A stretch of DNA of 64,000 nt from Taklimakanibacter albus (lineage in GTDB: Bacteria; Pseudomonadota; Alphaproteobacteria; Rhizobiales; Aestuariivirgaceae). Location of the stretch: the NCBI RefSeq assembly GCF_016595235.1, contig NZ_JAENHL010000007.1, positions 1,930,043 to 1,994,042 on the forward strand, written 5' to 3'. Each line of letters starts with the position of its first letter. Position 1 is the stretch's first letter. This document shows, one piece after another, positions 28,852-63,235 of this stretch. The translations under genes were made by a program, and so were the position numbers. Below the pieces are notes generated by a model. The model was not told the DNA's origin and ran no database searches. It saw nothing but the letters and a program-made list of their open reading frames with translations.

Positions 28852-28886
28852 TAGTTTAATTCTAAAATAATCGCTCCGAATGTCAA
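28852..28886 (-). promoter_or_regulatory. Promoter of the ligase-kynU-kynA operon with overlapping operator
   Basis: Reading left: a perfect -35 TTGACA (complement of 28881-28886), 16-bp spacer, -10 TAGAAT (complement of 28859-28864). The 16-bp motif TAGTTTAATTCTAAAA at 28852-28867 covers the -10. Similar motifs cover the -10 boxes at 51460-51475 and 63219-63234. A poorer match (TTTAGACTTGAA, 28910-28921) lies closer to the rightward SDR gene. A repressor, perhaps the MarR protein encoded at 29711, is inferred. Confidence 0.6.
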
Positions 28887-28973
28887 TTGCAGCCGCCCGG
28901 CAAAAACGCTTTAGACTTGAAATAATTTCCGGCCCGGCCTTACAATCGCTGTGAGCAACGAAAGACAGGGTAC

Positions 28974-29714
28974 ATGGTTGAACAGCGAGCACTCGTCACG
29001 GGCGGAAGCCGAGGCATCGGACGCGCCATTGCCATGGCGCTCTCTGGCCTTGGTCATGATGTCACTATCATGGGCCGCACGGAAGCCGCCTTGACGCAAG
29101 CGATCGCCGAGGGCGTCGCCAAGCGCGGCTTGAGCGTCGACGTCACCGATGAGAAGGCGCTGAGCCAGGCGGTCGCCGACAGTGGTCCCTATCACATCCT
29201 GATCAATAATGCGGGTGCCGCCGAATCCGCTCCCTTCCACACCACCAGCCTCGATCTCTTCCGCCGCATGATGGCGGTGAATGTCGAAAGTGCCTTCATC
29301 GCCACGCGAACCGCCCTGCCGGGCATGGTGAAATTGGGCTCGGGCCGTATCGTCAATGTCGCCTCGATCGCCGGCCTCAAGGGTTATCCCTATGTCTCGG
29401 CCTATTGCGCGGCGAAACACGCCATCATCGGGATGACCCGTGCGCTGGCGCTGGAGCTCGCCAAGACCCGCATCACAGTCAATGCGCTCTGCCCCGGCTA
29501 TACCGACACCGATCTCATCGCCGAGGCTGCGAACACAATCGCCAAGAAGACCGGTATACCCGCCGCCAAGGCGATCGAACATTTCGCCAAGACGAATCCT
29601 GGCGGCCGGCTGATCACGCCGGCGGAAGTGACCAATGCGGCTCTGTGGCTGTGCTCCGAGGGCGCCTCCGCCATCACCGGCCAGGCGATCACCGTTGCGG
29701 GAGGCGATTTGTGA
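28974..29714 (+). CDS. Short-chain dehydrogenase/reductase (3-oxoacyl reductase type)
   Basis: A 246-aa classical SDR with GGSRGIGRAIA near residue 10, NNAG near 80, catalytic Ser in NVASIAGLKG, and YCAAK near 143-147. It reduces or oxidises a keto/hydroxy group with NAD(P)H. As the first gene of the rightward cluster and divergent from the anthranilate-CoA ligase, it likely acts on an alicyclic or open-chain oxoacyl-CoA formed after ring reduction of 2-aminobenzoyl-CoA. Its stop overlaps the next start (GTGA). The exact step is inferred. Confidence 0.8.
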   Translation: MVEQRALVTGGSRGIGRAIAMALSGLGHDVTIMGRTEAALTQAIAEGVAKRGLSVDVTDEKALSQAVADSGPYHILINNAGAAESAPFHTTSLDLFRRMMAVNVESAFIATRTALPGMVKLGSGRIVNVASIAGLKGYPYVSAYCAAKHAIIGMTRALALELAKTRITVNALCPGYTDTDLIAEAANTIAKKTGIPAAKAIEHFAKTNPGGRLITPAEVTNAALWLCSEGASAITGQAITVAGGDL

Positions 29715-30235
29715 CGACGCCCGAAGAGCAGTCTCCCTTGTGGATCGACGCCGAGACGACAGTGGCGGCGCGCCCCGCCGACCATAAGATGGAATTGCGC
29801 CTGTGGCTGCGCCTCCTCTCCTGCTCGCGCCTCATCGAGAACGACATCCGCCGTCATCTCAATGCCGAGTTCGATTTCAGCCTGCCGCGTTTCGATATAT
29901 TGGCGCAGCTCGACCGCGCCGATGCAGGCCTGGTGCTGGGCGAAGTATCGAAGCGGCTGATGGTCTCGGCCGGCAACATCACCAGCCTGGTCGAGGGCCT
30001 CGTCAAATCGGGCCATATCACCCGCACTACATCGAGCGGTGACCGCCGCGCCCAGGTCATCCGGCTCACCGACAAGGGCCGGCGCGAATTCCGCCGCATG
30101 GCCAAGGTCCATGGCGACTGGATCGCCAGATATTTCGAGCATCTGTCGCAAAAGGACATCGACAAATTGATGGATCTCCTGGCCTCCCTCAAGGACTCGA
30201 CACGCGAAACCATCCTGGCGAGGCAGCAGCCATGA
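29711..30235 (+). CDS. MarR-family transcriptional regulator
   Basis: A 174-aa MarR regulator starting at GTG 29711, overlapping the SDR stop by 4 bp. The winged helix includes [39 protein letters not shown] and the wing [24 protein letters not shown]. MarR proteins in aerobic CoA-dependent aromatic pathways commonly respond to the aryl-CoA or the free acid. Its place inside the catabolic operon, and the palindromic motif at the divergent promoter, make it the best candidate local repressor. Confidence 0.85.
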
Positions 30236-31065
30236 ACCGCACTCATGCCGTGATACCGCCCTTGAGCGCTTACAAAGCCCGCCATGTGCTGATGACCGTG
30301 ACGGACGGCGTGGCGTCCATCACGCTCAACCGGCCGGAGAAGAAGAACCCGCTCACTTTCGACTCCTATGACGAGCTCACCGCTATTTTCGCCGCCGCCC
30401 GCAAGGACGAGACCACCCATGCCTTCGTGATCTCGGGCGCCGGCGGCAATTTCTCCTCCGGCGGCGATGTGCTGGAAATCATCGGGCCGCTCACTGAAAT
30501 GAACGTGCCGCAATTGCTGCGCTTCACCGAGATGACCGGCGATCTGGTCAAGACGATGCGCGCCTGCCCGCAGCCGATCATTTCCGCCATCGACGGCATC
30601 TGCGCCGGCGCCGGCGCCATCATCGCCATGGCCTCCGATTTGCGGTTCGGCACCGAAGCGTCGAAGATCGCCTTCCTGTTCAACCGCGTCGGCCTCGCCG
30701 GCTGCGACATGGGGGCCTGCGCCATGCTGCCCCGCATCATCGGCCAGGGCCGCGCCTCCGAGCTGCTTTATACCGGCCGCGCCCTGGGCGGTGCGGAAGC
30801 CGAGCGCTGGGGCTTCTTCAACCGCCTCGTCGATCCGGCCAATCTCATCGAGGAAGCGACGAAGCTGGCGCGTCAGCTCGCTTCGGGCCCGACCTTCGCC
30901 AATGGCATGACCAAACGCATGTTGCAGGCCGAATGGGCGATGAGCATCGACGATGCGGTGGAGGCCGAGGCGATCGCCCAGGCGCTGTGCATGAAGACTG
31001 AGGATTTCCGCCGCGCCTATGAGGCTTTTGCCAATAAGCAGAAGCCTGTCTTCAAGGGCGATTGA
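30232..31065 (+). CDS. Enoyl-CoA hydratase/isomerase family protein
   Basis: A 277-aa crotonase-fold protein. The oxyanion-hole segments are [11 protein letters not shown] near 80 and [18 protein letters not shown] near 123, followed by [17 protein letters not shown] where other hydratases carry catalytic Glu residues; here the spacing has Asp and Cys instead, so it may be a hydrolase, lyase or atypical hydratase rather than a plain enoyl-CoA hydratase. It is coupled to the MarR gene by a 4-bp overlap and followed directly by the acyl-CoA dehydrogenase. It likely acts on a CoA intermediate of anthranilate breakdown. Confidence 0.8.
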
Positions 31066-31067
31066 GC

Positions 31068-32243
31068 ATGACCGACCGCAGCTTCCTCGCCTGGCCGTTT
31101 TTCGAGCAGAGGCATCGCGATCTCGAGGCGGAGGTGCTGGCTTTCGCCCGCAATGAAGTACCCGCGCTCGTCGATCATCACGACCCCGACCAGTCCTGCC
31201 GCAAGCTCGTCGCCGCTTTGGGTGACAGCGGTCTGCTGCGCCATGCGGTGACGGCGCCATACGGTGGGCGCGCCGAAAAACTCGACGTGCGCTCTCTGTG
31301 CCTTATCCGCGAAACCCTGGCCTATGCCGACGGGCTCGCCGATTTCGCTTTCGCCATGCAGGGCCTCGGTACCGGTCCCGTCACCTTGTTCGGCACCGAG
31401 GAGCAGAAGCGCAGATGGCTGCCGCCCATCGCCCAAGGCAAGGCGATCTCGGCCTTCGCTTTGTCGGAGCCCGAAGCCGGCTCGGATGTGGCAGCGCTTG
31501 CCTGCACCGCGCGGCCCGACGGCAATGAACATGTCGTCATTGAGGGCGAGAAGACCTGGATCTCCAATGGCGGCATCGCCGATCGTTATGTCGTCTTCTG
31601 TCGCACCGGTGAGGCGCCGGGAGCCCGCGGCCTCAGCGCCTTCATGGTCGAGGCGGATACGCCGGGCCTCAGCATCGCCGAGCGCATCGAGACCATCTCG
31701 CCGCATCCGCTGGCGCGCCTGCACTTCGACAATTGCCGTATTCCGATCGGCAACCGCATCGGCAAAGGCGGTGAAGGCTTCAAGATCGCTATGTCGGTGC
31801 TCGACATCTTCCGCTCGACGGTGGGCGCCGCCGCTCTGGGCTTTGCCCGGCGCGCCCTCGACGAGGCGCTGATTCATGTGTCGAGCCGGCGCCTGATGGG
31901 CGGCGTGCTCGCCGACCTCCAGATGGTGCAGGGCCAGATCGCCGACATGGCGCTCGATGTCGATGCTTCCGCGCTGATGGTCTATCGCGCCGCCTGGACC
32001 AAGGACCAGGGCGCCGAGCGCATCACCCGCGAGGCGGCGATGGCGAAATTCACCGCGACCGAAGCGGCGCAGCGGGTGATCGACACCGCCGTGCAGCTTT
32101 TCGGCGGGCTCGGCGTCAAATCGGGCACGCGGCCCGAGCAGCTTTATCGCGAGATCCGCGCCTTGCGCATCTATGAAGGGGCGAGCGCGGTGCAAAAGGT
32201 CATCATCGCGCGCTCGCTGCTCTCTCCCACCACGAAAGCCTGA
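31068..32243 (+). CDS. Acyl-CoA dehydrogenase
   Basis: A 391-aa FAD-dependent acyl-CoA dehydrogenase of normal length. Motifs are [16 protein letters not shown] near 138, [15 protein letters not shown], and a C-terminal [11 protein letters not shown] followed by [16 protein letters not shown], with the usual catalytic Glu position in YEGAS. It introduces a double bond alpha,beta to the thioester and passes electrons to ETF. I take ATG 31068; a TTG two codons earlier is in frame. It follows the hydratase-like gene within 2 bp, as in a beta-oxidation cassette. Confidence 0.88.
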
Positions 32244-32245
32244 TC

Positions 32246-34282
32246 ATGACCGTGTCGCTTGCCCGCGAAGATGGCATCGCCATCATCACCATCGACAATC
32301 CGCCAGTGAACGCGACCTCGCATTCCGTGCGCCAGGGCCTGGCGGAAGCCATCACGCAGATCACGCAAGATACGTCGCTGCGCGGCGTCATCCTCGCCTG
32401 CACCGGCAAGACCTTCGTCGCCGGAGCCGATATCCGCGAATTCGGCAAGCCGCCGGTACCACCGTCCTTGCGCGATGTCATCGCGGCGCTCGAAGCGCTC
32501 ACCATTCCCGTCGTCGCCGCCATTCACGGCACGGCCCTCGGTGGCGGTTTCGAGCTTGCCCTCGCCTGCCACTATCGCGTGATGAACAGACACGCCTTTG
32601 TCGGTCTGCCGGAAGTCACGCTCGGCATCATTCCAGGCGCCGGCGGCACGCAGCGGCTGCCGCGCCTCATCGGCATGGCCCCGTCCATCGACATGATCAC
32701 CTCGGGCCGTCGCGTGGCCGCGGACGAAGCCTTTAAGCTCGGCATCGCCGACAGGATCGGGGAAGGCAATCTCATCGCCGAGGCGCGCGCCTTCCTCGCA
32801 ACGAAGCCGGTGGTCAGGCGGGTGCGCGACCTCATCGCCGCGCCTGCAAATTTTGCCGAGTTGCGCAAGCAGGTGAAAGCGCGCGGCCAGACAAGTCCGG
32901 TTCGCGCTTTCGACGTCCTGGAAGAGACCGCACATCTCGACTTCGCGCAGGGCATGGCGCGCGAGGCGGAAGTCTTCGCTGAGCTGCGCAATTCCGAGCA
33001 GGCACGCGCGCTGCGCCACATCTTCTTCGCCGAACGCGAGATCGCCAAAATTCCCGAGGCCGACGCGAAACCGCGACCGGTGGCACATCTGGGCGTCATC
33101 GGTGGTGGCCTGATGGGAACCGGCATCGCCGCCGCGGCTCTGCTCTCCGGCCTCTCCGTTACTTTGCTTGAGCGCGATCAGCCGTCGGCTGATCTCGCCC
33201 GCGACCGGGCTCTGGGCTTGCTGAAAAGCTCGGTCGAGCGCGGCAAGCTCGCACAAGCCGACTTCGACCGGATCGCCGCCGGCGGATTGCGCACCACCGC
33301 GACGATGGCCGATCTCTCTTCCGCCGATCTGGTGATCGAGGCCGCCTTCGAGGATCTGGGCGTGAAGCAGGCGATCTTCCGCGATCTCGACAAGGCCGCG
33401 AAGCCCGACGCCATCCTCGCCACCAACACCTCCTATCTCGATGTCGGGGCCATCGCCGATGTGACGGCGCGGCCGCAGCAGGTCATCGGTCTGCATTTTT
33501 TCTCGCCCGCCCATATCATGAAGCTGCTCGAAGTGGTCGTGCCGCCCAAGGTGGCGCCCGAAACCGTGGCGACCGGCTTCGCCCTTGGCCGTAGGCTCGG
33601 CAAGATCGCGGTCCGCGCCGGCGTCTGCGACGGCTTCATCGGCAACCGCATTCTCTCGGCCTATCGCAAGCAGGCCGAATATCTGATGGAGGACGGCGCC
33701 GCCCCGGCCGAGATCGATGCCGCCTTCCGCGATTTCGGCCTGCCCATGGGCGTGTTCGAGATGCAGGATATGGCCGGGCTCGACATCATCTGGGCCAACC
33801 GCAAGGCTCTCGCCCCCACACGCGACCCGCGCGAGCGTTATGTCCGCATCGTCGATCTCATCTGCAAGAGCGGGCGCTTCGGCCGCAAGACCGGCAGCGG
33901 CTATTACAATTACGCCGGCAAGACGCCAACGCCTGATGAGGCGACCTCGGCTCTCATCGCGGAGGAACGCAAACATCGGAACATCACGCCGCGCACCTTC
34001 AGCAAGGACGAGATCATGGACCGCATCCTGCTCGCCATGATCAATGAAGGCGCCCGCATTCTCGAGGAAGGCATCGCCCTTCGCGCCAGCGACATCGATG
34101 TCGTCATGGTCAATGGCTACGGCTTTCCGCGCTGGCGCGGCGGCCCGATGTTTTTGGCCGACGAGATCGGCGTGAAGGCCGTCCTGCGCCGTATCGAAGC
34201 GCTGGCCAAGGAGGATGCCTGGTTCTGGCGACCGTCGGAACTGCTCCTGCGGCTGGCGGAGACGAACGGGAAGCTCGGCTAG
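32246..34282 (+). CDS. Multifunctional enoyl-CoA hydratase / 3-hydroxyacyl-CoA dehydrogenase
   Basis: A 678-aa fusion of the FadB/FadJ type. The N-terminal crotonase domain (about 1-180) has FVAGADIREFGK, HGTALGGGFELALACHYR, LPEVTLGIIPGAGGTQRLPR (both catalytic-type Glu residues present). The central NAD-binding domain (about 285-470) has GVIGGGLMGTGIA and IGLHFFSPAH. Two C-terminal HCDH domains complete it. It hydrates an enoyl-CoA and oxidises the 3-hydroxyacyl-CoA. It lies 2 bp after the dehydrogenase, completing the lower pathway; a thiolase is not present in this cluster. Confidence 0.9.
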   Translation: MTVSLAREDGIAIITIDNPPVNATSHSVRQGLAEAITQITQDTSLRGVILACTGKTFVAGADIREFGKPPVPPSLRDVIAALEALTIPVVAAIHGTALGGGFELALACHYRVMNRHAFVGLPEVTLGIIPGAGGTQRLPRLIGMAPSIDMITSGRRVAADEAFKLGIADRIGEGNLIAEARAFLATKPVVRRVRDLIAAPANFAELRKQVKARGQTSPVRAFDVLEETAHLDFAQGMAREAEVFAELRNSEQARALRHIFFAEREIAKIPEADAKPRPVAHLGVIGGGLMGTGIAAAALLSGLSVTLLERDQPSADLARDRALGLLKSSVERGKLAQADFDRIAAGGLRTTATMADLSSADLVIEAAFEDLGVKQAIFRDLDKAAKPDAILATNTSYLDVGAIADVTARPQQVIGLHFFSPAHIMKLLEVVVPPKVAPETVATGFALGRRLGKIAVRAGVCDGFIGNRILSAYRKQAEYLMEDGAAPAEIDAAFRDFGLPMGVFEMQDMAGLDIIWANRKALAPTRDPRERYVRIVDLICKSGRFGRKTGSGYYNYAGKTPTPDEATSALIAEERKHRNITPRTFSKDEIMDRILLAMINEGARILEEGIALRASDIDVVMVNGYGFPRWRGGPMFLADEIGVKAVLRRIEALAKEDAWFWRPSELLLRLAETNGKLG

Positions 34283-34285
34283 ATT

Positions 34286-36011: not shown

Positions 36012-36118
36012 CGCCGATCTCCCCGAATTGTCAGCAAAATCAAAGCTTAGGGGGCGCTCCGGGATATCCTCGGCGCCACCCGGACGATGCCATTCGGGAG
36101 GATGGGTGACAAGTCGCG

Positions 36119-36150: not shown

Positions 36151-36309
36151 AGCCCAAAAACAATGTGTTTTCTGACCCTCGAAGTCATTCCGTAAGAATT
36201 CCCGCTGCCGCGCCGGCCATCACTGTGATGTCCGGTGAAGGGGGAACTGCATTCAAAATTGGCGCCCGGAACGACCGTGACCGACATGAGCCCAATGGGA
36301 GGACTCTCA

Positions 36310-37386: not shown

Positions 37387-37393
37387 CGACGTC

Positions 37394-39923: not shown

Positions 39924-39924
39924 G

Positions 39925-41601: not shown

Positions 41602-44040
41602 CTAGCTGCGGCTGCGCAGGGACTGGGGATCGTAAGGCGAATCGTCGATCACCCGCGCCTTGCGCATCTCGCCCAATATCGGCACGTCGAGCGCCGTCCC
41701 GGTAACGCCAAGGCCAAGAGGCAGGAGCGCCAAAGCGATATCGTGTCCAAGCGTGTGGGCAAAGCCGCCCGAGGTGATGCGCCCGACCAGCCTGCCATTT
41801 TGATAGACGCCTTCATGCGCCAGCGCGCTGGCACCTTGGGTTTCGATCGCAAGCGTCACCAGCCGCCGCGCGACGCCCGCCTCCTTCTGCCGGACGAGGG
41901 CCGCGCGGCCGGCGAAGTCGCCTTTGTCCAAGGCGATGAAGCGATCGATGCCGCTCTCCCAGGCCGAGAGCTCCGGATTGATGTCGCGGAACATCGCCCG
42001 GAACGACTTCTCCAGCCTGAGCGATTCGAGCGCATAGAGCCCGACGGGCCTGAGACCATGCGCCTGCCCCGCCTGCAGCAGCAGGTCGAGCAGATGTCGC
42101 TGATAGGCCAAAGGATGATAGAGCTCCCAGCCGAGCTCGCCTTCATAATTGACCCTGAGCAGGCGCACATCGCTGGCGAGCCCCACCGCGCCTGTGCGAA
42201 CGGTGAACCAGGGAAAGGCCTCGTTGGACAGATCGATCTCGGTCAGGGGCTGAAGGAGTTGCCGCGCATTCGGCCCTACGATGGTGAAGCAGCCGCGATC
42301 ATTGGTGACATTGCTTAAGCGGACGCTGCCGTCCTCGGGCAGGAGCCGCGACAGCTCGTCGAAATTCCAGCGCTCGGCGCGCGGCGTCGATATGAGATAG
42401 AACAGACCGGCGGCGAGCTGCGCCACGATATACTCGGCCTGCACGCCGCCATTCTTCGTGAGGTGATGGCTGAGATTGACCCGGCCGGGCTTCGGCAGGC
42501 GATTGGCGAGAATGCCATCCAGCCATTTTTCGGCGCCGGGACCGCTGACCTCGAACTTCGTCATCGGCGTCATTTCGACGAGGCCGACGGCAGTGCGCAC
42601 CGCGCGGACTTCTTCGCCGATGTACTTGTCGTAGCCGGTCCACCGCCAGCTATAGGCGCCGTCGGTTTCGACCCCATTCGGGCGATACCAGTTCGGAAAC
42701 TCCCAGCCATTGAGCACGCCCCATTGAGCGCCGAGCTCGCTCAGGCGATCATAGGAAGGAGCGGTCTTCTGCGGGCGTGCCGCCGGCAGGCTTTCGCCGG
42801 GATAATGCTGAATGGCATGCGTGCCCCAGGCCTCGCGCACCTTTTCCCGCGTCCAGTTCTTGTTGGCATAGTCGCCGAAGCGGCGTGGATCGAGATCGGA
42901 GGTATCGAGGCTGTTGCCGCCTTCCACGATGCGCTCGGATAGATAATAGCCGATGGCGCCGCCCCAGAGAATTCCCCCCGGCACGCCTTCGGCGAGCCAG
43001 ACATTCCTCAGGCCCCAGGCCGGCCCCATCAAGGGCAGCTCATCGGCGGTCATCTGGAAGGGCCCGCGGACATTCGCCTTGATGCCCGCGCGTCCGAGCG
43101 CCGGCAGCAGCTCGATGGCGCGCTCCCAATTCACCTCGACGGCATCGAAGTCCTCTTCCAGGAGATCGGCGCCGAACCATTCGGGCACGCCGTTCTCGGC
43201 GAAGAGCTTGAGCTTCTCGGTGCGCTCATACGGGCCGAACATCAGCCCGTCGCCCTCTTGCCTGATATAGCCTTCGACATCCTCATCACGCAGGATCGGC
43301 ATTTCGGGCAGGCCTTGCTGCTTGCGCTCGACCAGCTCCGGCACGGCTTCGGTGATCCAGTATTGATGGATGATCGGGATCGCCGGGATATCGAGTCCCA
43401 GCAGAGCGCCGGTCTGGCGCGCATAGTTTCCGGTCGCGCAGACGACATGCTCGCAGGTGATCTCGCCCTTGTTGGTCGTTATCCGCCACTCGCCGCCGGG
43501 CAGTCTCGTAAAGCTACGGACTTCGGTCTCCAGATAGACCTTTGCGCCGCGGTCGCGGGCGCCCTTCGCCATCGCCTGCGTCACATCCGCCGGCGCGATA
43601 TGGCCATCATCGGGATTATAGAGGGCGGCCAGCATGTCCTTATTGGCTAGCAGCGGCCAGAGCTTGCGGGCTTCTGCCGGCGTCAGCAGCTCGGCCCGCG
43701 TGCCCTGCGCATCGGCGACGCTCATATAGCTCTTGAACTCATCGAGCCGGTCGCGGCTGGTCGCCAGGCGCAGCTGGCCGCTTTTATGCCAGCCGACACT
43801 TTGCCCGGTATCGGCTTCGAGCCCTTCATAGATCTCGATCGTCCTGGCGATCATGCGGCCGATATTGAAGTTTCTCGTATAGGACGGGACCAGGCCCGCC
43901 GCATGCCAGGTCGAACCGGCGGTCAGCTGGGTGCGCTCGAGCAGCGCAATATCCGACCAGCCGCGCCGCGCCAGGCCGTAGAGGATCCCGGCCCCGACGC
44001 AACCACCACCGACTACCACCACCCGTGCATGTGCCTGCAT
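41602..44040 (-). CDS. FAD-dependent oxidoreductase fused to GcvT domain (dimethylglycine/sarcosine dehydrogenase type)
   Basis: An 812-aa flavoprotein. The N-terminal dinucleotide fold (VVVVGGGCVGAGILYGLA near 7-25) is followed by STWHAAGLV, where the His is the covalent FAD attachment residue in dimethylglycine dehydrogenase. The DAO domain runs to about 375, the FAO_M linker follows, and the C-terminal half is a GcvT/folate-binding domain (KFEVSGPGAEKWLDGIL, LRLEKSFRAMFRDINPELSAWE). It would remove an N-methyl group from a methylated glycine-like substrate and pass the one-carbon unit to tetrahydrofolate. Start at ATG 44040 with GAGGGAG upstream. It is divergent from an MttB-family methyltransferase. 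Confidence 0.85.
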   Translation of the reverse strand: MQAHARVVVVGGGCVGAGILYGLARRGWSDIALLERTQLTAGSTWHAAGLVPSYTRNFNIGRMIARTIEIYEGLEADTGQSVGWHKSGQLRLATSRDRLDEFKSYMSVADAQGTRAELLTPAEARKLWPLLANKDMLAALYNPDDGHIAPADVTQAMAKGARDRGAKVYLETEVRSFTRLPGGEWRITTNKGEITCEHVVCATGNYARQTGALLGLDIPAIPIIHQYWITEAVPELVERKQQGLPEMPILRDEDVEGYIRQEGDGLMFGPYERTEKLKLFAENGVPEWFGADLLEEDFDAVEVNWERAIELLPALGRAGIKANVRGPFQMTADELPLMGPAWGLRNVWLAEGVPGGILWGGAIGYYLSERIVEGGNSLDTSDLDPRRFGDYANKNWTREKVREAWGTHAIQHYPGESLPAARPQKTAPSYDRLSELGAQWGVLNGWEFPNWYRPNGVETDGAYSWRWTGYDKYIGEEVRAVRTAVGLVEMTPMTKFEVSGPGAEKWLDGILANRLPKPGRVNLSHHLTKNGGVQAEYIVAQLAAGLFYLISTPRAERWNFDELSRLLPEDGSVRLSNVTNDRGCFTIVGPNARQLLQPLTEIDLSNEAFPWFTVRTGAVGLASDVRLLRVNYEGELGWELYHPLAYQRHLLDLLLQAGQAHGLRPVGLYALESLRLEKSFRAMFRDINPELSAWESGIDRFIALDKGDFAGRAALVRQKEAGVARRLVTLAIETQGASALAHEGVYQNGRLVGRITSGGFAHTLGHDIALALLPLGLGVTGTALDVPILGEMRKARVIDDSPYDPQSLRSRS

Positions 44041-44245
44041 GAGACCGCTCCCTCTCATTTCACCTGGAAATTACCGATCCTGGACACGCATGTCCACTCG
44101 TATTGCCCTGCGAGCAGCGTAATGCGGATGTGCCAAAATACCTATAGCTCGCGCTTCTATCGCGGCCGCGCGAGCCGCCGGCATAACGTTCTTGCACCGT
44201 TACGCAACTCTCTGTACACATGTGTTCAGAGCACCGGAGGTCGTC
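44041..44245. promoter_or_regulatory. Divergent control region of demethylation genes with palindromes
   Basis: No gene is seen here. Two dyads stand out. GGACA-CGCA-TGTCC lies at 44082-44095, close to the leftward gene. CTGTACACATGTGTTCAG at 44212-44229 is an 18-bp near-perfect palindrome with the perfect core ACACATGTGT, just before the ribosome site of the MttB-like gene. Both are candidate regulator sites; no regulator gene lies next to them in the window. Confidence 0.45.
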
Positions 44246-45781
44246 ATGGACACAGGCGTGCAGGATCACAGGCGCAGACGCAAACCGCGGCCGGGCAGTT
44301 CAGGCCGGGTGACCGATTATACAAAGCTGGTCAATCCATTTGAGCCGATCCGTGTCTTCACGGATGATCAGGTCGAAGCGATCCATCGGAACGCTCTGCG
44401 CATTCTCCAGGAAATCGGCATGCGCGTGCTGCATCAGGACGGCCGGGCAAGGCTCAAGGCCGCCGGCGCCAGCGTCGATGAAGGCTCGCAGATCGTGCGC
44501 TTCGACACGGGTCTTGTCGAACACGCTCTGGCGACGGCGCCCCGCACGATTGAGCTCATCGGCAGATCGGCGGCCAGAAATGTTTCCCTGGGCGGGCGCA
44601 ATGTGGCCTTTCTTTCAGTCGCCGGCGCCCCGCATGCCACGGATATCGACCGTGGCAAGCGGCCGGGAACGCTCGCTGATCTCGAAGACTTCATAAGGCT
44701 GACGCAGAGCTTCGACATCCTGCATATGCTCGCCGCCGTCATGGAGCCGCAGGACGTGCCCGTTCATCTCCGCCACTATGCGACGATGCGGGCCGCGCTC
44801 ACTTTGAGCGACAAGGTGCCCTGGGTATTCTGCCGCGGCGCCGGACAGGTGCAGGACAGTTTCGCGATGGTCCGCATCGCCCGCGGGCTGTCGGAAGACG
44901 AATTCGTCCGGTCGCCGCACTGCTACACGGTCATCAATACGAATTCGCCGCTTCAGCTGGACGTCCCCATGACGCAGGGGATCATCGATTTCGCCGAAGC
45001 GGGTCAGATGCTCATCGCGACACCCTTCTGCCTGGCCGGCGCCATGGCGCCGATCACCATTGCGGGAGCCTTGTCCTTGCAGCATGCCGAAGCGCTCGCC
45101 GCCATCACCCTGTACCAGGTGGTTCGCCCGGGCGCGCCGGTCATGTATGGGAGCTTTGCCTCCAATGTCGACATGCGATCGGGCTCGCCGGCATTCGGAA
45201 CACCCGAGCATGTGAAGACGTCATTCGGGGCGGGCCAGCTGGCGCGGCGACTGGGAATCCCTTGGCGCTCATCGGCCGGAACGGCGTCCAATATGCCTGA
45301 TGTGCAAGCCGACTACGAAACACAGATGAGCGCCTGGGGCGCCGTGATGAGCGGCTGCAACATCCTGCTGCACGGCGCCGGCTGGCTGGAAGGCGGCCTG
45401 ACGGCGTCCTTCGAAAAGCTGATCACCGATCTCGAGCTCCTCCAGTCATTCGCCGAGATGTTCAGGCAGGTCGGCTGCGACGAGCAGGACCTGGCATTCG
45501 ACGCCATTCGCGACGTGGGCCCGGGTGGACACTTCTTTGCGACGTCCCACACGATGGAGCGTTACCAGACTGCCTTTTACGAGCCGCTGGTATCTGACTG
45601 GTCGAATTTCGGCCGCTGGACCGAGACCGGCGCGAAGAGCGCAACCGAGCGCGCCAACCGGATCTGGAAACAGAAGCTGGGCGACTTCGAAGCGCCGGCG
45701 CTCGACATCGCCTTGCGTGATCAGCTTGATGACTTCATCGCGAGGCGCAGCCGCGAGGGCGGCGCGCCTATCGACGCGTAA
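44246..45781 (+). CDS. Trimethylamine methyltransferase (MttB) family protein, non-pyrrolysine
   Basis: A 511-aa member of the MttB superfamily, recognisable from DYTKLVNPFEPIRVFTDDQVEAIHRNALRILQEIGMRVL-type N-terminal helices (about 30-75), the barrel strands around PFCLAGAMAPITIAGAL, and GVLSGCN-like MSGCNILLHGAGWLEGGLTA. No in-frame amber codon interrupts it, so it is not the pyrrolysine-containing MttB. Non-Pyl members demethylate glycine betaine, proline betaine, carnitine or similar quaternary amines onto a corrinoid protein. No corrinoid protein gene is adjacent. Start at ATG 44246 with GGAGG upstream. It is paired divergently with the N-methyl-glycine dehydrogenase-like gene. Confidence 0.85.
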   Translation: MDTGVQDHRRRRKPRPGSSGRVTDYTKLVNPFEPIRVFTDDQVEAIHRNALRILQEIGMRVLHQDGRARLKAAGASVDEGSQIVRFDTGLVEHALATAPRTIELIGRSAARNVSLGGRNVAFLSVAGAPHATDIDRGKRPGTLADLEDFIRLTQSFDILHMLAAVMEPQDVPVHLRHYATMRAALTLSDKVPWVFCRGAGQVQDSFAMVRIARGLSEDEFVRSPHCYTVINTNSPLQLDVPMTQGIIDFAEAGQMLIATPFCLAGAMAPITIAGALSLQHAEALAAITLYQVVRPGAPVMYGSFASNVDMRSGSPAFGTPEHVKTSFGAGQLARRLGIPWRSSAGTASNMPDVQADYETQMSAWGAVMSGCNILLHGAGWLEGGLTASFEKLITDLELLQSFAEMFRQVGCDEQDLAFDAIRDVGPGGHFFATSHTMERYQTAFYEPLVSDWSNFGRWTETGAKSATERANRIWKQKLGDFEAPALDIALRDQLDDFIARRSREGGAPIDA

Positions 45782-48012: not shown

Positions 48013-48426
48013 CTACGGGATTACCGCCGTTGCCTCGATCTCGACCAGCGCCTTGGGCTCGACGAGACGCGTGACCTGGACCGTCGCCATGGCGGGAAAA
48101 TTCTTGCCGATGATTTCGCGATAGGCCCCCCCCAGTCCTTTGGGATCGGCGAGATAGTCTTCGATCGAGGTGACATACCAGGTCAGGCGCACGAGATGCT
48201 CCGGGCCCGCACCTGCCTCCTTCAGCACCGCCACGATATTGTGCAGCGTCTGGCGGACTTGCGGCACGAAACCATCCGGAAAGACGCCTTCTTCGTTCCA
48301 GCCGACAAGCCCGCCGGTGAAGACCAGCCGGCCTTGCGCCAATATGCCATTGGCGTAGCCCTTGGGCCGCGGCCATCCCTCAGGCTGCAGAATGCGATGC
48401 AAAGGTTCCCGTTTTACGTCGCTCAT
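48013..48426 (-). CDS. RidA-family (YjgF/YER057c/UK114) imine/enamine deaminase
   Basis: A 137-aa RidA-fold protein with VFTGGLVGWNEEG and the segment RQTLHNIVAVLKEAGAGPEHLVRLTWYVTS-like core (about 60-100), then ARLVEPKALVEIEATAVIP at the C-terminus, in which the usual Arg before EIEA-type ends is replaced; the protein is closer to divergent RidA subfamilies than to archetypal RidA. RidA proteins hydrolyse reactive imines and enamines. It begins one base after the stop of the 2-aminobenzoyl-CoA monooxygenase/reductase gene, whose known product in this pathway is an enamine; removal of that amino group is an attractive inferred role. Confidence 0.82.
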   Translation of the reverse strand: MSDVKREPLHRILQPEGWPRPKGYANGILAQGRLVFTGGLVGWNEEGVFPDGFVPQVRQTLHNIVAVLKEAGAGPEHLVRLTWYVTSIEDYLADPKGLGGAYREIIGKNFPAMATVQVTRLVEPKALVEIEATAVIP

Positions 48427-48427: not shown

Positions 48428-50788
48428 TCACGCGCCCTCCTCTTTCACTGCGTGACGTTTCGGCCGCGCTTTGATCTGCAATTCCATCTGCTTCTGCCTG
48501 AGCCGCTCCATCTCGCGGAAAGCCTGGTTGCGCCCGGGCAGATACTGTTTCGGCCAGTTCTGATCCCTGGCCCCGTACCAGGCCTGCGCCTGATGGGCGA
48601 AATAAGGATTCCACAGATGCGGCCGCGCCAGCGCCACGAGATCGGCGCGCCGCGTATGCAGGATGGTGTTCACCTGCGCCGCTTCGGTGATGGCGCCCAC
48701 CGCCATGGTCGCCATTTTCGGCACATTGCGGATCGCTTCGGCGAAGGGCACCTGATACATGCGGCCATAGACGGGCTTCTGATCGGGCACCGTCTGGCCG
48801 GAGGAGACATCGATCAGGTCGCAGCCCGCATCGCGGAATCGCTCGGCGATGACGAAGAGATCGGCCTCGCTGATGCCGCCGTCTTTCCAGTCCGAGGCTG
48901 AAATGCGCACCGACATCGGCCGGTCTTCCGGCCACACCGCGCGCATCGCCGCAAAGACTTCGAGCGGATAACGCAACCGGTTCTCGATGCCGCCGCCATA
49001 ATCGTCATCGCGCTCATTGGTGAGCGGCGAGATGAAGGAGGCGAAGAGATAGCCATGGGCGCAATGCAGCTCCAGCATGTCGAAGCCGGCTCGCGCCGCG
49101 CGTTTCGTCGCCGAGACGAACTCGGCCTTGATGCGATCCATGCCGGCGCGGTCGAGCTCCATCGGAAGGGCGCTGATCCCATCGAAATAAGGAAGGGCCG
49201 AGGCCGACACCAGCGGCCAGTTGTCTTGCGCCTCCTTGATGGGATGATCGGCCGCTTCCCAGCCGAGCTGCGTCGACCCCTTGCGGCCGGAATGGCCGAG
49301 CTGCATGCAGATCTTCGCATCCGACGACGCATGGATGAAATCGACGATACGTTTCCATTGCGCTTCCTGCGCGTCGCTCCACAGGCCGGGACAGCCGAGC
49401 GAGATCCGCGCATCGGGCGAAGGGCAGCTCATCTCGGCGAAAATCAGCCCCATGCCGCCCAGCGCGTGCGAGCAATAATGCACGAAATGCCAGTCGGTGA
49501 GATTGCCTTGCGTGTCGGCGGAATACTGCGCCATTGGCGACATCACCACACGGTTCGCCACCTCCATGCCGCGCAGCTGGAATTTGGTGAACATCGGCGT
49601 CGGCCGTGAACTGCGATAGTCGTGGCCGGTCTCACGGTAATAACGTTCGTACCATTCGCTGTCGGCCTTGGCGACGAAGCCCGGATCGCGGACCAGCAGA
49701 TTGTCATAGGTGATGGTCTTGGCCCGGCACATGACCACCATGGCGAACTGCATCGGCTCCATATCGAAGGAGCGTTTCATATGCTCGAACCAGGCAAGCG
49801 ACACATCGGCATTGTGCTGGACGACCTGGCAGGGCACGCGCCGCGCCGCATCATAGGCGGCGAAGGCGGCCTTTACGTCGCTCGCCGCATGCTTCACCAC
49901 CGCATTCGACAGGCCGATGGCGCATTCCATCGCGAGCTTGGTGCCGGAGCCGATGGAGAAATGCGCCGAGGCCTTGGCATCGCCGAGCAGCACGATGTTC
50001 TTGTGGTTCCAGTTCTCGCAGAAGATGCGGGGGAAACGCCGCCAGAACGAGCGATTGAGCAGGAGAGGATGGCCCTCGAGCTCATCTTTGTAGAGCGCCT
50101 CGAGCTTTGCTCTCGAATCTTCCTCGTCCGTTTCCGTGAAGCCATGGCCTTGCCAGCAGGCTTCGTCCATCTCGAAGACCCAGGTCGATTTGCCTTTCTC
50201 ATATTGATAAGTGTGGGCGCAGATGATCCCATGCGGTGTCTGCTTGAAGAAATAATTGAACTCGCCCATTGGCCGGGTCGATCCCATCCAACAGAAGCGG
50301 TTCGCCTTGACCGAAACGGCCGGCTTGAAATGCTCCTTGTAATGGTCACGGATGAGCGAGTTGATGCCGTCGGCCGCGACCACGATATCGGCCGAGGAGC
50401 AAAGCTGCTCGATCTCTTCCGGATCGATGCGCCGGCTGAAGGTCAGCCCCACGCCCACTTCGCGGCAGCGCGCATGCAGCAGTTGCAGCAAGGTCATGCG
50501 CGACAGGCCGCAGAAGCCATTGCCGCCGCAGCGGACCTCGTTGCCCTTGTAGTGGATGGCGACATCGTCCCAATAGGCGAATTTATCGCGGATGCGCTCA
50601 TAGGACGGCGGATCATGCGACAGGAACTCATCGAGCGTGTCGTCGGAGAAGACGACACCGAAGCCGAAAGTGTCGTCATCCCTGTTCTGCTCGATGACCT
50701 CGATGTCCCAGTTGGGCTTCGCCTTCTTGGTGAGAAGAGCAAAATATAGGCCGCCGGGGCCGCCGCCGATCACCTTGATCCGCATCAT
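48428..50788 (-). CDS. abmA: 2-aminobenzoyl-CoA monooxygenase/reductase (bifunctional salicylyl-CoA hydroxylase-like)
   Basis: A 786-aa fusion of two flavoenzymes. Residues about 1-390 are an FAD monooxygenase (GGGPGGLYFALLTKK at 8-22, VVAADGINSLIRDH near 135, and VLLGDAKASAHFSIGSGTKL near 270). Residues about 395-775 are an old-yellow-enzyme reductase (LRGMEVANRVVMSPMAQYSA, then LQLGHSGRKGST and LHCAHGYLFASFISPLTN). This architecture is that of Azoarcus 2-aminobenzoyl-CoA monooxygenase/reductase, which hydroxylates and then reduces the ring of anthranilyl-CoA. The anthranilate-CoA ligase gene about 20 kb away supports this over salicylyl-CoA. It is in an operon with an exported VOC protein and RidA. 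Confidence 0.88.
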   Translation of the reverse strand: MMRIKVIGGGPGGLYFALLTKKAKPNWDIEVIEQNRDDDTFGFGVVFSDDTLDEFLSHDPPSYERIRDKFAYWDDVAIHYKGNEVRCGGNGFCGLSRMTLLQLLHARCREVGVGLTFSRRIDPEEIEQLCSSADIVVAADGINSLIRDHYKEHFKPAVSVKANRFCWMGSTRPMGEFNYFFKQTPHGIICAHTYQYEKGKSTWVFEMDEACWQGHGFTETDEEDSRAKLEALYKDELEGHPLLLNRSFWRRFPRIFCENWNHKNIVLLGDAKASAHFSIGSGTKLAMECAIGLSNAVVKHAASDVKAAFAAYDAARRVPCQVVQHNADVSLAWFEHMKRSFDMEPMQFAMVVMCRAKTITYDNLLVRDPGFVAKADSEWYERYYRETGHDYRSSRPTPMFTKFQLRGMEVANRVVMSPMAQYSADTQGNLTDWHFVHYCSHALGGMGLIFAEMSCPSPDARISLGCPGLWSDAQEAQWKRIVDFIHASSDAKICMQLGHSGRKGSTQLGWEAADHPIKEAQDNWPLVSASALPYFDGISALPMELDRAGMDRIKAEFVSATKRAARAGFDMLELHCAHGYLFASFISPLTNERDDDYGGGIENRLRYPLEVFAAMRAVWPEDRPMSVRISASDWKDGGISEADLFVIAERFRDAGCDLIDVSSGQTVPDQKPVYGRMYQVPFAEAIRNVPKMATMAVGAITEAAQVNTILHTRRADLVALARPHLWNPYFAHQAQAWYGARDQNWPKQYLPGRNQAFREMERLRQKQMELQIKARPKRHAVKEEGA

Positions 50789-50797: not shown

Positions 50798-51391
50798 CTA
50801 TTTCGCCGGATCCTTGGGCGACCATAACACAGTGCCGCCGTCCTTTTCATAGGCCATCCCCTTGGGATAGCTGATGAGCTCGAATTGCAGCCCCCAGGGC
50901 GCCATGAAATAAAGAATCGATTGCCCGGCAGCCGGCCCCTGATCGACCGGCAACGGCCCCATCATGGTGCGCACATTATTGGCCTTGAGATAATCGGCCG
51001 CGGCCTTGATGTCATCGACATAGAGGGCGATGTGATAGCCGCCAATATCGCTGTTCTTCGGCTTCGCATCTTTCTGGTCGGGCGAAGAATATTGGAAGAG
51101 CTCGATATTCGAGCCATAGCCGCAGCGCACCAGCGAGATCTGCTCGATCTTGGCGCGCGGATGGACGTCGAGCAGATCCTGCATGAAGGTGCCCTTGTCG
51201 TCTGAGAAGGGCCCGAAGGTCATCGCATGCTGGCAGCCCAGCACATTGGTGAAGAAGTCCAGCGCCTGCTTGATATCGGGAACAGTGACGCCGGTATGAT
51301 CATGGCCGCGCAGACCCGGCAGCGATCCGGCGAGCGCAGGCGTGGCGAGGCAAAGGCTGAGCGACAACGACGCGGCAAATTTCTTCAGCAT
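50798..51391 (-). CDS. Exported VOC-fold (glyoxalase/dioxygenase superfamily) protein
   Basis: A 197-aa protein with a Sec signal peptide (LKKFAASLSLSLCLATPALA, cleavage near residue 21) and two beta-alpha-beta-beta-beta modules. Metal-type residues are visible: His in DHTGVTVPD, His in GYHIALYVDD and Glu in LQFELISYP. VOC proteins are usually cytoplasmic, so an exported one encoded first in the 2-aminobenzoyl-CoA operon is odd. It might process or bind an extracytoplasmic aromatic precursor. GGAGG precedes the ATG; the next gene starts 9 bp after the stop. Confidence 0.8.
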   Translation of the reverse strand: MLKKFAASLSLSLCLATPALAGSLPGLRGHDHTGVTVPDIKQALDFFTNVLGCQHAMTFGPFSDDKGTFMQDLLDVHPRAKIEQISLVRCGYGSNIELFQYSSPDQKDAKPKNSDIGGYHIALYVDDIKAAADYLKANNVRTMMGPLPVDQGPAAGQSILYFMAPWGLQFELISYPKGMAYEKDGGTVLWSPKDPAK

Positions 51392-51458
51392 GTTGCGTTC
51401 CTCCGGGACAGGCCGGTGCCTTGCCAGGTCCGGTGTCTTTCTTGCGGCACCTGGAATT

Positions 51459-51487
51459 ACTATAGAACTAAACTATTTTCCGGACAA
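51459..51487 (-). promoter_or_regulatory. Promoter of the VOC-abmA-ridA operon with overlapping operator
   Basis: Reading left: -35 TTGTCC (complement of 51482-51487), 17-bp spacer, -10 TATAGT (complement of 51459-51464). The motif TAGTTTAGTTCTATAG (complement of 51460-51475) lies exactly over the spacer end and the -10. It matches the motif at 63219-63234 in 13 of 16 positions and that at 28852-28867 in 13 of 16. Confidence 0.62.
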
Positions 51488-54822: not shown

Positions 54823-54833
54823 TCGGGCCTGTT

Positions 54834-58519: not shown

Positions 58520-58529
58520 GGCGCCTTCC

Positions 58530-59030: not shown

Positions 59031-59034
59031 CTGA

Positions 59035-60615: not shown

Positions 60616-60643
60616 GTTCGTTTCTGAGCCTCTCTCCTCTTTT

Positions 60644-60692
60644 CCCTTCTCCCGCCTGCGGGAGAAGGTGGCCGAAGGCCGGATGAGGGTGT
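60644..60692. repeat. Dispersed palindromic repeat, family A, copy 3
   Basis: 49 bp identical to parts of the copies at 2141-2194 and 24827-24880, with the CTCCCGCCTGCGGGAG hairpin. It fills almost all of the gap between the CrtI-like gene start and the stop of the upstream cyclase-family gene, ending 2 bp before that stop codon. Confidence 0.85.
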
Positions 60693-60693
60693 C

Positions 60694-61482
60694 TCAGCGC
60701 GCGACCAGCGCCAACACACGCAACGGGCTGCCGGTGCCATTGACGATCTTCAGCGGCGCCGCGATCAGGATGGCGCCTTTGGCCGGCAGCTTGTCGAGAT
60801 TGCACAGGCTGGCGAGGCCATAGCGGTTCGCCTTGTGCATCAGATTATGCGCCGGGAAGGGCGGCGTCATGCCACCGGCGGCGCCGGCATCGGTGCCGAC
60901 CGTCTCGCTGCCCCAGCCGATGGCGCCTTTCGACAGGATATATTCGATGCAGTCGACCGTCGGGCCCGGCGAATGCGGTCCCGTCTCATTGGCGTTGAGG
61001 AATTCCTTCTCGCTGCCATTGCGCTTGTACCAGTCGGTGCGCATCAGCACCCAGGTGCCTTTGGCGATGTCGCCATGGGTCTTCTCCCAGGCGCGCACGC
61101 CATCGGCGGTAAGCAGGAAGTCCGGATTCTTCTTCACCTCGGCGCTGCAGTCGATGACATTGACGGGCGCCACGAAATTCTTCGGCGCGATCCGGTCGGT
61201 CGTGCCGTCAGCATAGTCCTTGCCGGTGATCCAATGCACCGGCGCGTCGAAATGCGTGCCGGAATGTTCGCCGAGCTTGAGCCAGTTCCATGACCAGAAC
61301 GGACCATTCTGATCGTAATTGGAGATATTGTGCACCTCGACCGTCGGCGTGTTCTTGCCGATCTCGGGCGGCAGCTTGATCAGCGGCGTCTCAGGCCCGA
61401 GCGGCGCCGAGAGATCGATGACGTCGACGGCTCCCGACAGAAGGGCTTCCGCCAATGAAGTGAGATCGGCTTTCTGCGCCAT
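60694..61482 (-). CDS. Cyclase-family hydrolase (kynurenine formamidase / isatin hydrolase superfamily)
   Basis: A 262-aa protein of the cyclase family (PF04199) with the metal and catalytic motif GEHSGTHFDAPVHW near residue 72. At 262 aa it is longer than KynB (about 210 aa) and nearer to isatin-hydrolase-like members. Start taken at ATG 61482, 7 nt after GGAGGA; an ATG two codons earlier abuts that site. Candidate reactions are hydrolysis of N-formylkynurenine, the step missing beside kynA, or isatin to isatinate; neither is proven. It is divergent from the second CrtI-like gene. Confidence 0.75.
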   Translation of the reverse strand: MAQKADLTSLAEALLSGAVDVIDLSAPLGPETPLIKLPPEIGKNTPTVEVHNISNYDQNGPFWSWNWLKLGEHSGTHFDAPVHWITGKDYADGTTDRIAPKNFVAPVNVIDCSAEVKKNPDFLLTADGVRAWEKTHGDIAKGTWVLMRTDWYKRNGSEKEFLNANETGPHSPGPTVDCIEYILSKGAIGWGSETVGTDAGAAGGMTPPFPAHNLMHKANRYGLASLCNLDKLPAKGAILIAAPLKIVNGTGSPLRVLALVAR

Positions 61483-61635
61483 AGGCATTCCTCCGCTGCG
61501 TGTTGTTGTTCTGGTCCAGCATCCTATGCCCAATGCATGCAAATGCAAGTAACAAATCTGGACTTTATCAAGCGCTAAGGAATCTCATGGACAGATTATA
61601 TGCATATGCCAGTATGTCTGCCGGAGGGGACGGCC

Positions 61636-63204
61636 ATGAACTATGACGCGATCATCGTCGGCAGCGGCCATAACGGGCTTGCCGCGGCCGTGCATCTGGC
61701 CAGGCAAGGCTGGAAGGTCGGCGTCTTCGAGCGCAACAAAGTGGCGGGCGGCGCGGTGCAGACCCGCGAGGTGACGCTTCCCGGCTTCCGCCATGATCTC
61801 TTCGCCATGAATCTCGGCCTCTTCGCCGGCTCACCCTTTATGCGCGCCCATGGCGAAGCGCTGACCAGGCACGGCCTGGCTTTCGCCGGCGCGGGCGACT
61901 GCTTCGCAACGCCCTTTGCCGATGGCAGCTGGTTCGGCGTCTCGATGGACAAGGAGAAGAACATCGCCCGGGCGCAGAGCTTCTCGGCCAAGGACGCCGA
62001 GGCCTGGAGGAACTTGAGCGATCGCTTCGGCCGCGACGCGCCGCATATCTTCGCTTTGCTCGGCAGCCCGATGCCGTCCCGCGATCTTCTGCCCTTGGGC
62101 TGGAAGGCCTGGCGGGCGCAAGGCGCCGCCTGGATCATCGACACGCTGAAGCTGCTTGTCTCCTCGCCCCGCGCTTTTCTCGACCAGACCTTCGACTCCG
62201 AGAAGATCAAGGCGACGCTTGCCGCCTGGGGCCTGCATCTCGATTTCGCGCCCGATATCGCGGGCGGCGCGCTTTTTCCTTATCTCGAGGCGATGGCCGA
62301 CCAGAGTTTCGGCATGGCGCTCGGCAAAGGCGGCGCCGATGTGATGATCAAGGCGCTCACCAGCTATCTCAAGGAGCTCGGCGGCGAAATCCATCTCGAC
62401 GCCGAGGTCCTGCGCATCGACAGGAGCGCCGGCCGCGCCACCGGCGTCACGCTCGCCGACGGACGGCAGTTCCAGGCGACCCGCGCGGTGATCGCCAATG
62501 CCTTGCCGCAGGCCGTTTTCGGCCGCCTCCTCGACGGCGGCAGCGGCGATGCCGAAACCGACCGCCGCATGAAGGCGTTCCGGCCCGGCCCCGGCACGAT
62601 GATGATTCATGTCGCCTGCGATGGCCTCCCCGACTGGACGGCGGGGGACGAGCTCAAGCGTTTCGCTTATCTCCATCTCGCCCCTTCGCTCGACATGATG
62701 AGCCGCGTCTATCACGAGGCGCTGGCGGGGCTCCTGCCGGCGGAGCCGGTCGTCGTCGTCGGCCAGCCGACCGCCATCGACTCCAGCCGAGCCCCCGACG
62801 GCAAGCATATTCTCTGGCTGCAGGTCCGTGTCCTGCCGGCCGAGATCAGGGGCGACGGCAAAAGTGAGATCACCGGCACCGACTGGGACCAGAACAAGGA
62901 GGCCTATGCCGACCGCGTGCTCGCCATTCTCGAGACCTACGCGCCGGGCTTCGGCGCCAAGATCCTCGGCCGCGCCGTCTTCTCGCCGATCGATCTCGAG
63001 CGTGAAAATCCCAATCTGCTGGGTGGCGACAATCTCGGCGGCAGCCATCATCTGAGCCAGAATTTTCTCTTTCGCCCGGCGCCCGGATGGTCGCGCTATA
63101 AAACGCCGGTCCCGGGACTTTATCTCGTCGGCGCATCCACTTGGCCGGGGGCCGGCGTCGGCGCCGGGTCGGGTTTCATGCTGGCCAAGATGCTCAGCAA
63201 GTGA
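61636..63204 (+). CDS. CrtI-like NAD(P)/FAD-dependent oxidoreductase
   Basis: A 522-aa flavoprotein of the same family as that at 59035-60615. The FAD fold reads YDAIIVGSGHNGLAAAVHLAR with VFERNKVAGGAVQ following, and the C-terminus reads LYLVGASTWPGAGVGAGSGF. GGAGGGG precedes ATG 61636; the in-frame start 12 codons earlier is less likely. Two related oxidoreductases flank the cyclase-family gene on opposite strands. A perfect ATATGCATAT palindrome (61598-61607) lies in its upstream region. Substrate unknown. Confidence 0.8.
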   Translation: MNYDAIIVGSGHNGLAAAVHLARQGWKVGVFERNKVAGGAVQTREVTLPGFRHDLFAMNLGLFAGSPFMRAHGEALTRHGLAFAGAGDCFATPFADGSWFGVSMDKEKNIARAQSFSAKDAEAWRNLSDRFGRDAPHIFALLGSPMPSRDLLPLGWKAWRAQGAAWIIDTLKLLVSSPRAFLDQTFDSEKIKATLAAWGLHLDFAPDIAGGALFPYLEAMADQSFGMALGKGGADVMIKALTSYLKELGGEIHLDAEVLRIDRSAGRATGVTLADGRQFQATRAVIANALPQAVFGRLLDGGSGDAETDRRMKAFRPGPGTMMIHVACDGLPDWTAGDELKRFAYLHLAPSLDMMSRVYHEALAGLLPAEPVVVVGQPTAIDSSRAPDGKHILWLQVRVLPAEIRGDGKSEITGTDWDQNKEAYADRVLAILETYAPGFGAKILGRAVFSPIDLERENPNLLGGDNLGGSHHLSQNFLFRPAPGWSRYKTPVPGLYLVGASTWPGAGVGAGSGFMLAKMLSK

Positions 63205-63206
63205 GC

Positions 63207-63235
63207 TTGCGGGGGATTTAGTTTAGACCTAAAGT
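63207..63235 (+). promoter_or_regulatory. Promoter of the last solute-binding protein with overlapping operator
   Basis: Reading right: -35 TTGCGG (63207-63212), 17-bp spacer, -10 TAAAGT (63230-63235). The motif TAGTTTAGACCTAAAG at 63219-63234 contains the perfect inverted repeat TTTAG-AC-CTAAA and covers the -10 in the same register as at 51459-51487. Confidence 0.6.

Follow-up and report, generated by a model that had tools for sequence, protein, structure and literature searches.

A 64,000-nucleotide stretch of the genome of Taklimakanibacter albus (assembly GCF_016595235.1, contig NZ_JAENHL010000007.1, positions 1,930,043 to 1,994,042), referred to here as the window, carries an 18-bp inverted repeat at the promoters of several scattered gene blocks. 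These boxes are very probably the operators of MarR1, a MarR-family protein encoded at 29711, and mark a conserved regulon. Computation shows the boxes, which overlap promoter-like hexamers, are conserved and are associated with MarR1. Together these results amount to a sequence-defined, testable regulon for the coenzyme A (CoA) route of anthranilate breakdown in plant-associated bacteria, among them Bradyrhizobium, Mesorhizobium and Ensifer. The analysis also names a likely regulator, proposes a transporter and a second kynureninase-like gene as added members, and yields a binding-site matrix that is applicable to other genomes.

Predicted operator boxes and their promoters

A preliminary description of the window had reported a 16-bp element on three separated promoters. 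Its sequences and coordinates are correct, and rereading the hexamers directly from the sequence confirms the promoters TTGACA-16-TAGAAT (minus strand, aryl-CoA ligase gene), TTGTCC-17-TATAGT (minus strand, VOC-abmA-ridA operon) and TTGCGG-17-TAAAGT (plus strand, solute-binding protein gene). The register relative to the -10 is indeed identical in the latter two; that of the ligase promoter, TTGACA-16-TAGAAT, differs from them. The shared box is real, but its extent is better given as an 18-bp dyad, which ends in TA in all three sites (28852-28869, 51458-51475 and 63219-63236) and has the consensus TAnTTTARnnYTAAAnTA. Only 63219 matches the core TTTAGNNCTAAA exactly; the 28852 and 51458 sites are each one base off. 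A further box, O2, lies before the SDR-marR operon and had been overlooked, as had a weaker one close to the abm box. The boxes of the window, with their scores under the matrix introduced below, are:

28852..28869, minus strand: O1, predicted operator TATTTTAGAATTAAACTA on the -10 (TAGAAT) of the ligase-kynU-kynA promoter; 26.0 bits
28907..28924, plus strand: O2, operator-like box CGCTTTAGACTTGAAATA covering the -35 of TTGAAA-18-TACAAT before the SDR-marR operon; 16.9 bits, rank 3
51458..51475, minus strand: O3, predicted operator TAGTTTAGTTCTATAGTA on the -10 (TATAGT) of the VOC-abmA-ridA promoter; 16.4 bits
51488..51505, minus strand: weak second box TACTTCATATCTATAGCA beside O3, 30 bp upstream; 8.8 bits, rank 5
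63219..63236, plus strand: O4, predicted operator TAGTTTAGACCTAAAGTA on the -10 (TAAAGT) of the binding-protein promoter; 26.9 bits

The evidence from the window alone is weak, and the comparison with relatives carries the case: the bare 12-bp core finds 6 matches with up to two mismatches against 3.2 in shuffled sequences, a number that 9 of 100 shuffles reach and that is not significant. Because circularity had to be avoided, the motif was built outside the window's genus, from the stretch upstream of AbmA (at most 320 bp) in those 28 of the 97 genomes with AbmA that matched best; dropping 3 near-duplicates left 25 upstream regions. Unseeded expectation-maximisation on these regions returned the near-palindrome TATTTTAAGCCTAAAATA with a log-likelihood of 396, compared with 50-60 for base-shuffled sequences in the same procedure (with fewer starts), and 24 of the 25 regions hold a site. 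Applied to the window, this matrix from other genera ranks 63219 (O4) first, followed by 28852 (O1), 28907 (O2), 51458 (O3) and 51488, with the next place at 4.6 bits. The three sites first described are thus ranks 1, 2 and 4.

A first-order Markov null gives 0.011 sites of at least 16 bits per 64 kb, against four in the window; it produced no site of at least 20 bits in 39.3 million positions, and across 100 simulated windows the best sites averaged 8.8 bits and peaked at 18.3. Since no null site reaches 20 bits, O1 and O4 each stand singly beyond this null. O2 and O3, at 16-17 bits, are singly within chance and owe their weight to their position and to the relatives, while the 51488 box alone is not significant and takes its weight from the same-genus genome G247 only.

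Across the 7.17-Mb genome, a search for the 18-bp dyad TANTTTARNNYTAAANTA with at most one mismatch returned only the three places first described (none in the reversed control), and a window-derived 15-mer with at most one mismatch returned the same three. By score, a further strong box of 25.0 bits stands on contig C4 (L121:7127-7144) and ends 8 bases before the ATG of a kynureninase-like gene (TIGR01814, 222.9 bits, under the cut-off of 246.4). It is kept in G247 in the same arrangement, at 21.9 bits, before a gene that is 86% identical. Next after this kynureninase-like gene comes a flavin monooxygenase-like one, and the other side carries genes for caprolactamase-like hydrolases.

Other places were considered and set aside. 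At C6:172287 (11.2 bits), C7:1003527 (11.0), C8:1981574 (10.6) and C8:2083255 (9.5), no pathway gene was recognised among the translations of open reading frames (ORFs); further two-mismatch places are C8:2016995, viewed as an ORF list only, and C8:1988595. All of these are treated as chance matches, an origin that is not proven for them.

Conservation among relatives

The preliminary description had held that a lack of conservation in relatives would speak against its proposal. The orthologous promoters were compared, and the boxes are kept both in G247 and across the order. In G247, where the hexamers were read by eye, O1 corresponds to a 23.8-bit box with TTGACA-16-TAGAAT before the ligase gene (L043:11468), O2 to a 21.3-bit box before the SDR gene (L043:9635) with the promoter TTGAAA-18-TACTAT, O3 to an identical 18 bases of 16.4 bits (L119:6247) and O4 to a 29.4-bit box at the orthologous promoter; the weak box beside O3 is found again at the same spacing with 19.0 bits (L119:6217). 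In G247, 1.8 kb separates the ligase box from the SDR-marR box, each ahead of its own gene, an arrangement that fits O1 serving the ligase and O2 serving the marR operon. A window-derived consensus applied to 3.5-kb loci had found nothing in G247, and it was larger regions that revealed these boxes.

Outside the genus, 40 abm promoters were scanned, comprising the 28 nearest and 12 picked by hand from 69 others, with near-duplicates kept; sites of at least 14 bits are present in 38. A TTG begins 11, 12 or 13 bases before the box (10, 7 and 8 cases) in 25 of these 38, where 1.2 would be expected. This distance makes the right half of the box the likely -10 at 16-18 bp spacing, which is the register of O3 and O4. 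Twenty MarR1 neighbourhoods together contain 41 matches to the dyad with at most two mismatches, and the complement control has none.

A set of named genomes, the best 80 of 594 MarR1 matches, some of which are also in the matrix set, extends the picture to Mesorhizobium, Aminobacter, Ensifer, Shinella, Bradyrhizobium, Microvirga, Tardiphaga, Bosea, Caulobacter and metagenome-assembled genomes, some labelled Rhodospirillales. A site of at least 16 bits occurs in 79 of these 80 loci (150 sites versus 2 in the complement, over 1.21 Mb). The share of loci with such a site in the 300 bp upstream is 52 of 63 for abmA, 36 of 56 for the ligase gene, 34 of 65 for the SDR gene, 14 of 80 for MarR1 itself, 4 of 19 for kynU and none of 70 for RidA. 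One contig with a MarR1 locus and a box before MarR1 (L153, NZ_VCCH02000143.1) is titled Mycobacterium sp. KBS0706 and is possibly mislabelled or contaminated.

MarR1 and rival regulators

The genes downstream of the boxes in the window are:

25008..25886, minus strand: kynA, tryptophan 2,3-dioxygenase (TIGR03036, 425.1 bits, cut-off 390.7); true start probably inside the ORF
25844..27079, minus strand: kynU, kynureninase (TIGR01814, 296 bits, cut-off 246.4)
27076..28698, minus strand: aryl-CoA ligase (TIGR02262, 395.1 bits, cut-off 375.25)
28974..29714, plus strand: SDR oxidoreductase, first gene of the marR operon
29711..30235, plus strand: MarR1 (PF12802, PF01047; orthologues, co-occurrence)
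30232..31065, plus strand: enoyl-CoA hydratase (NF006107, 453.9 bits, cut-off 330)
31062..32243, plus strand: acyl-CoA dehydrogenase-like protein
32246..34282, plus strand: FadJ-like hydratase/3-hydroxyacyl-CoA dehydrogenase (under the cut-off of named equivalogs)
48013..48426, minus strand: RidA-like protein (PF01042)
48428..50788, minus strand: abmA, monooxygenase-OYE fusion (NF006101, 1028.8 bits, under the cut-off of 1078)
50798..51391, minus strand: VOC-family protein, first gene of the abm operon (PF13669, PF00903)
63280..64000, plus strand: solute-binding protein of an Opp/Dpp-type ABC transporter (PF00496); the operon continues past the window end

The best solved relative of the ligase is 4wv3, an anthranilate-CoA ligase (E 1e-95), and the enzyme is likely to share this activity. 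NF006101 is named salicylyl-CoA 5-hydroxylase/oxidoreductase; from its context, AbmA is likely a 2-aminobenzoyl-CoA monooxygenase/reductase.

That one regulon ties the scattered blocks together is supported by the promoter conservation in G247 and the order, by gene co-occurrence and by the presence of O2 ahead of the marR operon, and the same evidence makes the MarR protein at 29711, proposed earlier as the simplest repressor, the likely regulator. Its winged-helix domain is recognised by PF12802 (E 2.5e-10, 40.8 bits, cut-off 27) and PF01047 (E 7e-08, 32.7 bits, cut-off 24.6), and it stays below the cut-offs of the 13 named NCBIfam MarR equivalogs listed, such as BilQ, FabT and HpaR (best BilQ, 53 versus 125 bits). 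Among 297 genomes of the order, with orthologue thresholds of E 1e-25 for MarR1 and E 1e-100 for AbmA, MarR1 is found in 98 and AbmA in 99; both occur in 96, MarR1 alone in 2, AbmA alone in 3 and neither in 196. The window genome has a single MarR1 match at this threshold, and every one of the 24 genomes whose upstream regions hold the motif has MarR1. A trait of the MarR family, a conserved inverted repeat in the target promoters and before the predicted regulator's own operon, is present. In the stretch that we take, from the family, to be the recognition helix, the residues S, R, MVS and GN are invariant in 13 aligned MarR1 orthologues.

Several observations weigh on the other side. The dyads are imperfect, with 3 to 7 of 9 pairs matching, and at two mismatches the genome-wide count (8 places) does not exceed the control (12), nor does it in G247 (7 versus 11 in the reversed control), where 6 of the 7 places fall in five promoters: ligase, SDR-marR, abm, binding protein and kynureninase-like. 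Two places, C5:12406 (18.0 bits) and C8:148469 (16.9), score as high as O2 and O3, and no pathway gene was recognised among the ORF translations around them; about 1.3 such places per genome are expected under the null, about as seen, and these two are likewise treated as chance matches, though unproven ones. Two of the 40 abm promoters have no site, one (L093) at a contig end in a genome where MarR1 was not found and the other (L105) in a genome with MarR1, and nothing of at least 9 bits is found in 17 of 30 binding-protein promoters. The co-occurrence of MarR1 and AbmA is inflated because synteny is conserved and the genomes are related. Lastly, the box before AbmA persists in two of the three genomes that have AbmA but no MarR1 match (L203, 29.5 bits; L204, 26.2), while the third has no box there. 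Since the contigs of all three end near AbmA they are no clean control, and in L203 and L204, where they end at AbmA, MarR1 may be cut off.

It follows from the conserved synteny that co-occurrence alone cannot separate MarR1 from an unlinked partner, and the boxes could in principle belong to an unlinked regulator of the pathway, with MarR1 as a passenger of the cluster; the boxes kept in L203 and L204 would agree with this. We nevertheless consider it very improbable, as boxes lie directly before marR1, or before the SDR gene that is often the first of its operon, in the proportions given above for the named loci, a dyad suits a MarR dimer, and the presumed recognition helix of MarR1 carries the invariant residues named above.

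The second MarR protein of the window, MarR2 at 58530, had been offered as an alternative binder and is disfavoured. It is nearby and of the right family, lying beside isatin hydrolase and indolepyruvate oxidoreductase-like genes; all of the 38 genomes (of 297) with MarR2 have AbmA, a 16.6-bit box of the MarR1 type precedes isatin hydrolase in L045 and L046, and 3 of the 7 named loci with that gene have a site of at least 16 bits before it. Against these points, MarR2 is present in 7 of the 24 motif-bearing genomes and missing at E 1e-25 from the other 17, and the divergent promoter ahead of the MarR2-containing operon carries a different conserved element, ATGCATNTGCAAATATC. Binding of the boxes by MarR2 is hence, in our estimation, very improbable.

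In the window, copies resembling ATGCATNTGCAAATATC lie at 61537-61553 and 61600-61616, 63 bp apart and with 3 mismatches each, in the divergent promoter of the isatin hydrolase and a FAD oxidoreductase. G247 keeps this spacing, and in eight further loci, of which L045 and L123 are apparently the same contig, the mismatches number 0-1. Of 12 sequences scanned, 10 carry the element in this promoter with up to 3 mismatches, and the promoter does not appear in the remaining two, L119 and L062; 14 loci without MarR2 contain 3 matches in 278.5 kb. Its short form TTGCATNTGCAA is not enriched in the window (13 matches versus 13.5 expected), so the case for this element rests on the other loci; ATGCATNTGCAAATATC is possibly the operator of MarR2.

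That the similarity of the boxes reflects no more than AT-rich -10 sequence and chance has a negligible probability: -10 boxes are AT-rich, the core is not significant in the window alone and an AT-rich null (50% GC) yields 0.74 sites of at least 16 bits per 64 kb, but a motif derived from other genomes with clean controls puts these very places first in the window.

Pathway, transporter and known systems

For the MarR1 regulon we infer the following mode of action. A MarR1 dimer would bind the 18-bp dyad on the -10 (O1, O3, O4) or the -35 (O2) and keep RNA polymerase off the ligase/kynU/kynA block, its own operon (the genes for SDR, MarR1, enoyl-CoA hydratase, acyl-CoA dehydrogenase and FadJ), VOC-abmA-ridA and the Opp-type ABC transporter; the box before the kynureninase-like gene on contig C4 may be a further target. 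Breakdown of tryptophan, kynurenine or isatin/indole would lead to anthranilate, whereupon a pathway compound, most likely anthraniloyl-CoA or else anthranilate, would release MarR1 and turn on the scattered blocks together. Anthranilate or its CoA thioester is suggested as inducer because, across the genomes, the ligase and AbmA are the commonest box-bearing members, whereas the feeder genes for kynurenine and isatin vary. Repression is expected from a dyad on the -10 or -35, as CouR is a repressor (PMC4737184, in part) and so are most members of the MarR family.

The preliminary description saw in the binding protein at 63280 a candidate component of a regulated aromatic transporter. In support of this, it heads an operon that two permeases and two ATPases of the Opp/Dpp type make complete. 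Of the 32 orthologous promoters, 30 were scanned over 350 bp; a box of at least 16 bits occurs in 10 and a weaker one in 3, and it is kept in 8 of 28 when the genome itself and its genus are excluded. A thirty-first promoter (G202, L050) has two sites of 18.2 bits. With the box in a minority of these promoters, control of the transporter by MarR1 would be lineage-dependent. The proposed substrate fares less well: the gene is present in 32 of the 297 genomes, 28 of which have MarR2 and 31 MarR1, and it tracks the isatin-hydrolase/MarR2 module. With isatin hydrolase and IorAB-like genes as neighbours, the substrate is no less likely to be indolic than to be anthranilate. A binding protein specific for indole-3-acetate (IAA), IadK2, is encoded in the iad locus of Variovorax (PMC12633357, in part).

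A wider scheme can be put forward tentatively, at somewhat less than even confidence. MarR1 would be a dedicated anthraniloyl-CoA sensor, distributed from the Hyphomicrobiales into other Alphaproteobacteria and forming the lower tier, while MarR2, with ATGCATNTGCAAATATC as its operator, would sense an indolic compound and turn on the isatin branch; MarR1 would join the tryptophan, isatin/auxin and transport blocks at the anthranilate node.

The aerobic 2-aminobenzoyl-CoA pathway of Azoarcus evansii has a ligase and a monooxygenase/reductase fusion, and in this the genes described here resemble it. No operator or MarR regulator for the Azoarcus evansii pathway was found in the literature searches made. 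CouR is a MarR-family repressor that responds to p-coumaroyl-CoA (PMC4737184, in part), and the likeness lies in a MarR repressor, here predicted, whose inverted repeat lies across several operon promoters of an aryl-CoA pathway and across that of the repressor gene itself. The two systems differ in that the CouR box, cATTGA-5-TCAATg, lies over the -35 according to the same part of that source, whereas the box here, TAnTTTAR-nn-YTAAAnTA, lies over the -10 in most abm promoters read. The similarity of MarR1 to the entry named CouR (6c28) is weak (E 4.9e-07).

IadR and IadR2 are MarR proteins of loci that convert indole-3-acetate to anthranilate, and these loci share with the window MarR proteins, two in number, and IorAB-like genes (PMC9613470, in part). 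MarR1, however, is distant from the IAA-binding MarR_73 (7kfo, E 1.3e-4, far below 3boq at E 9.2e-21), and the regulon described here, unlike the iad loci, covers the CoA route below anthranilate. Auxin removal of the iad type yields anthranilate (PMC9613470, in part), so that its connection with carbon use can now be tested.

No paper on the MarR1 regulator or its box was found in the open-access literature, where absence is not proof, and the passages searched of PMC6449761, on the aromatic regulons of Betaproteobacteria, do not mention MarR. The circuit, common to the relatives, is apparently undescribed so far.

Two neighbouring regions may be recorded. Between 52049 and 63204, the isatin hydrolase (60694-61548, a 'putative cyclase' identified by its sequence; 4j0n, E 2.6e-122), two FAD oxidoreductases, the IorAB-like pair and MarR2 are reminiscent of parts of the iad loci for auxin degradation; no Rieske IadDE was found among the proteins scanned, a scan that covered proteins encoded beyond the initial 21 kb of the window, not the remaining genome. 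At 41602-45781, a DAO/GCV_T gene, similar to dimethylglycine or sarcosine dehydrogenase, adjoins a gene of the trimethylamine methyltransferase (MTTB) family.

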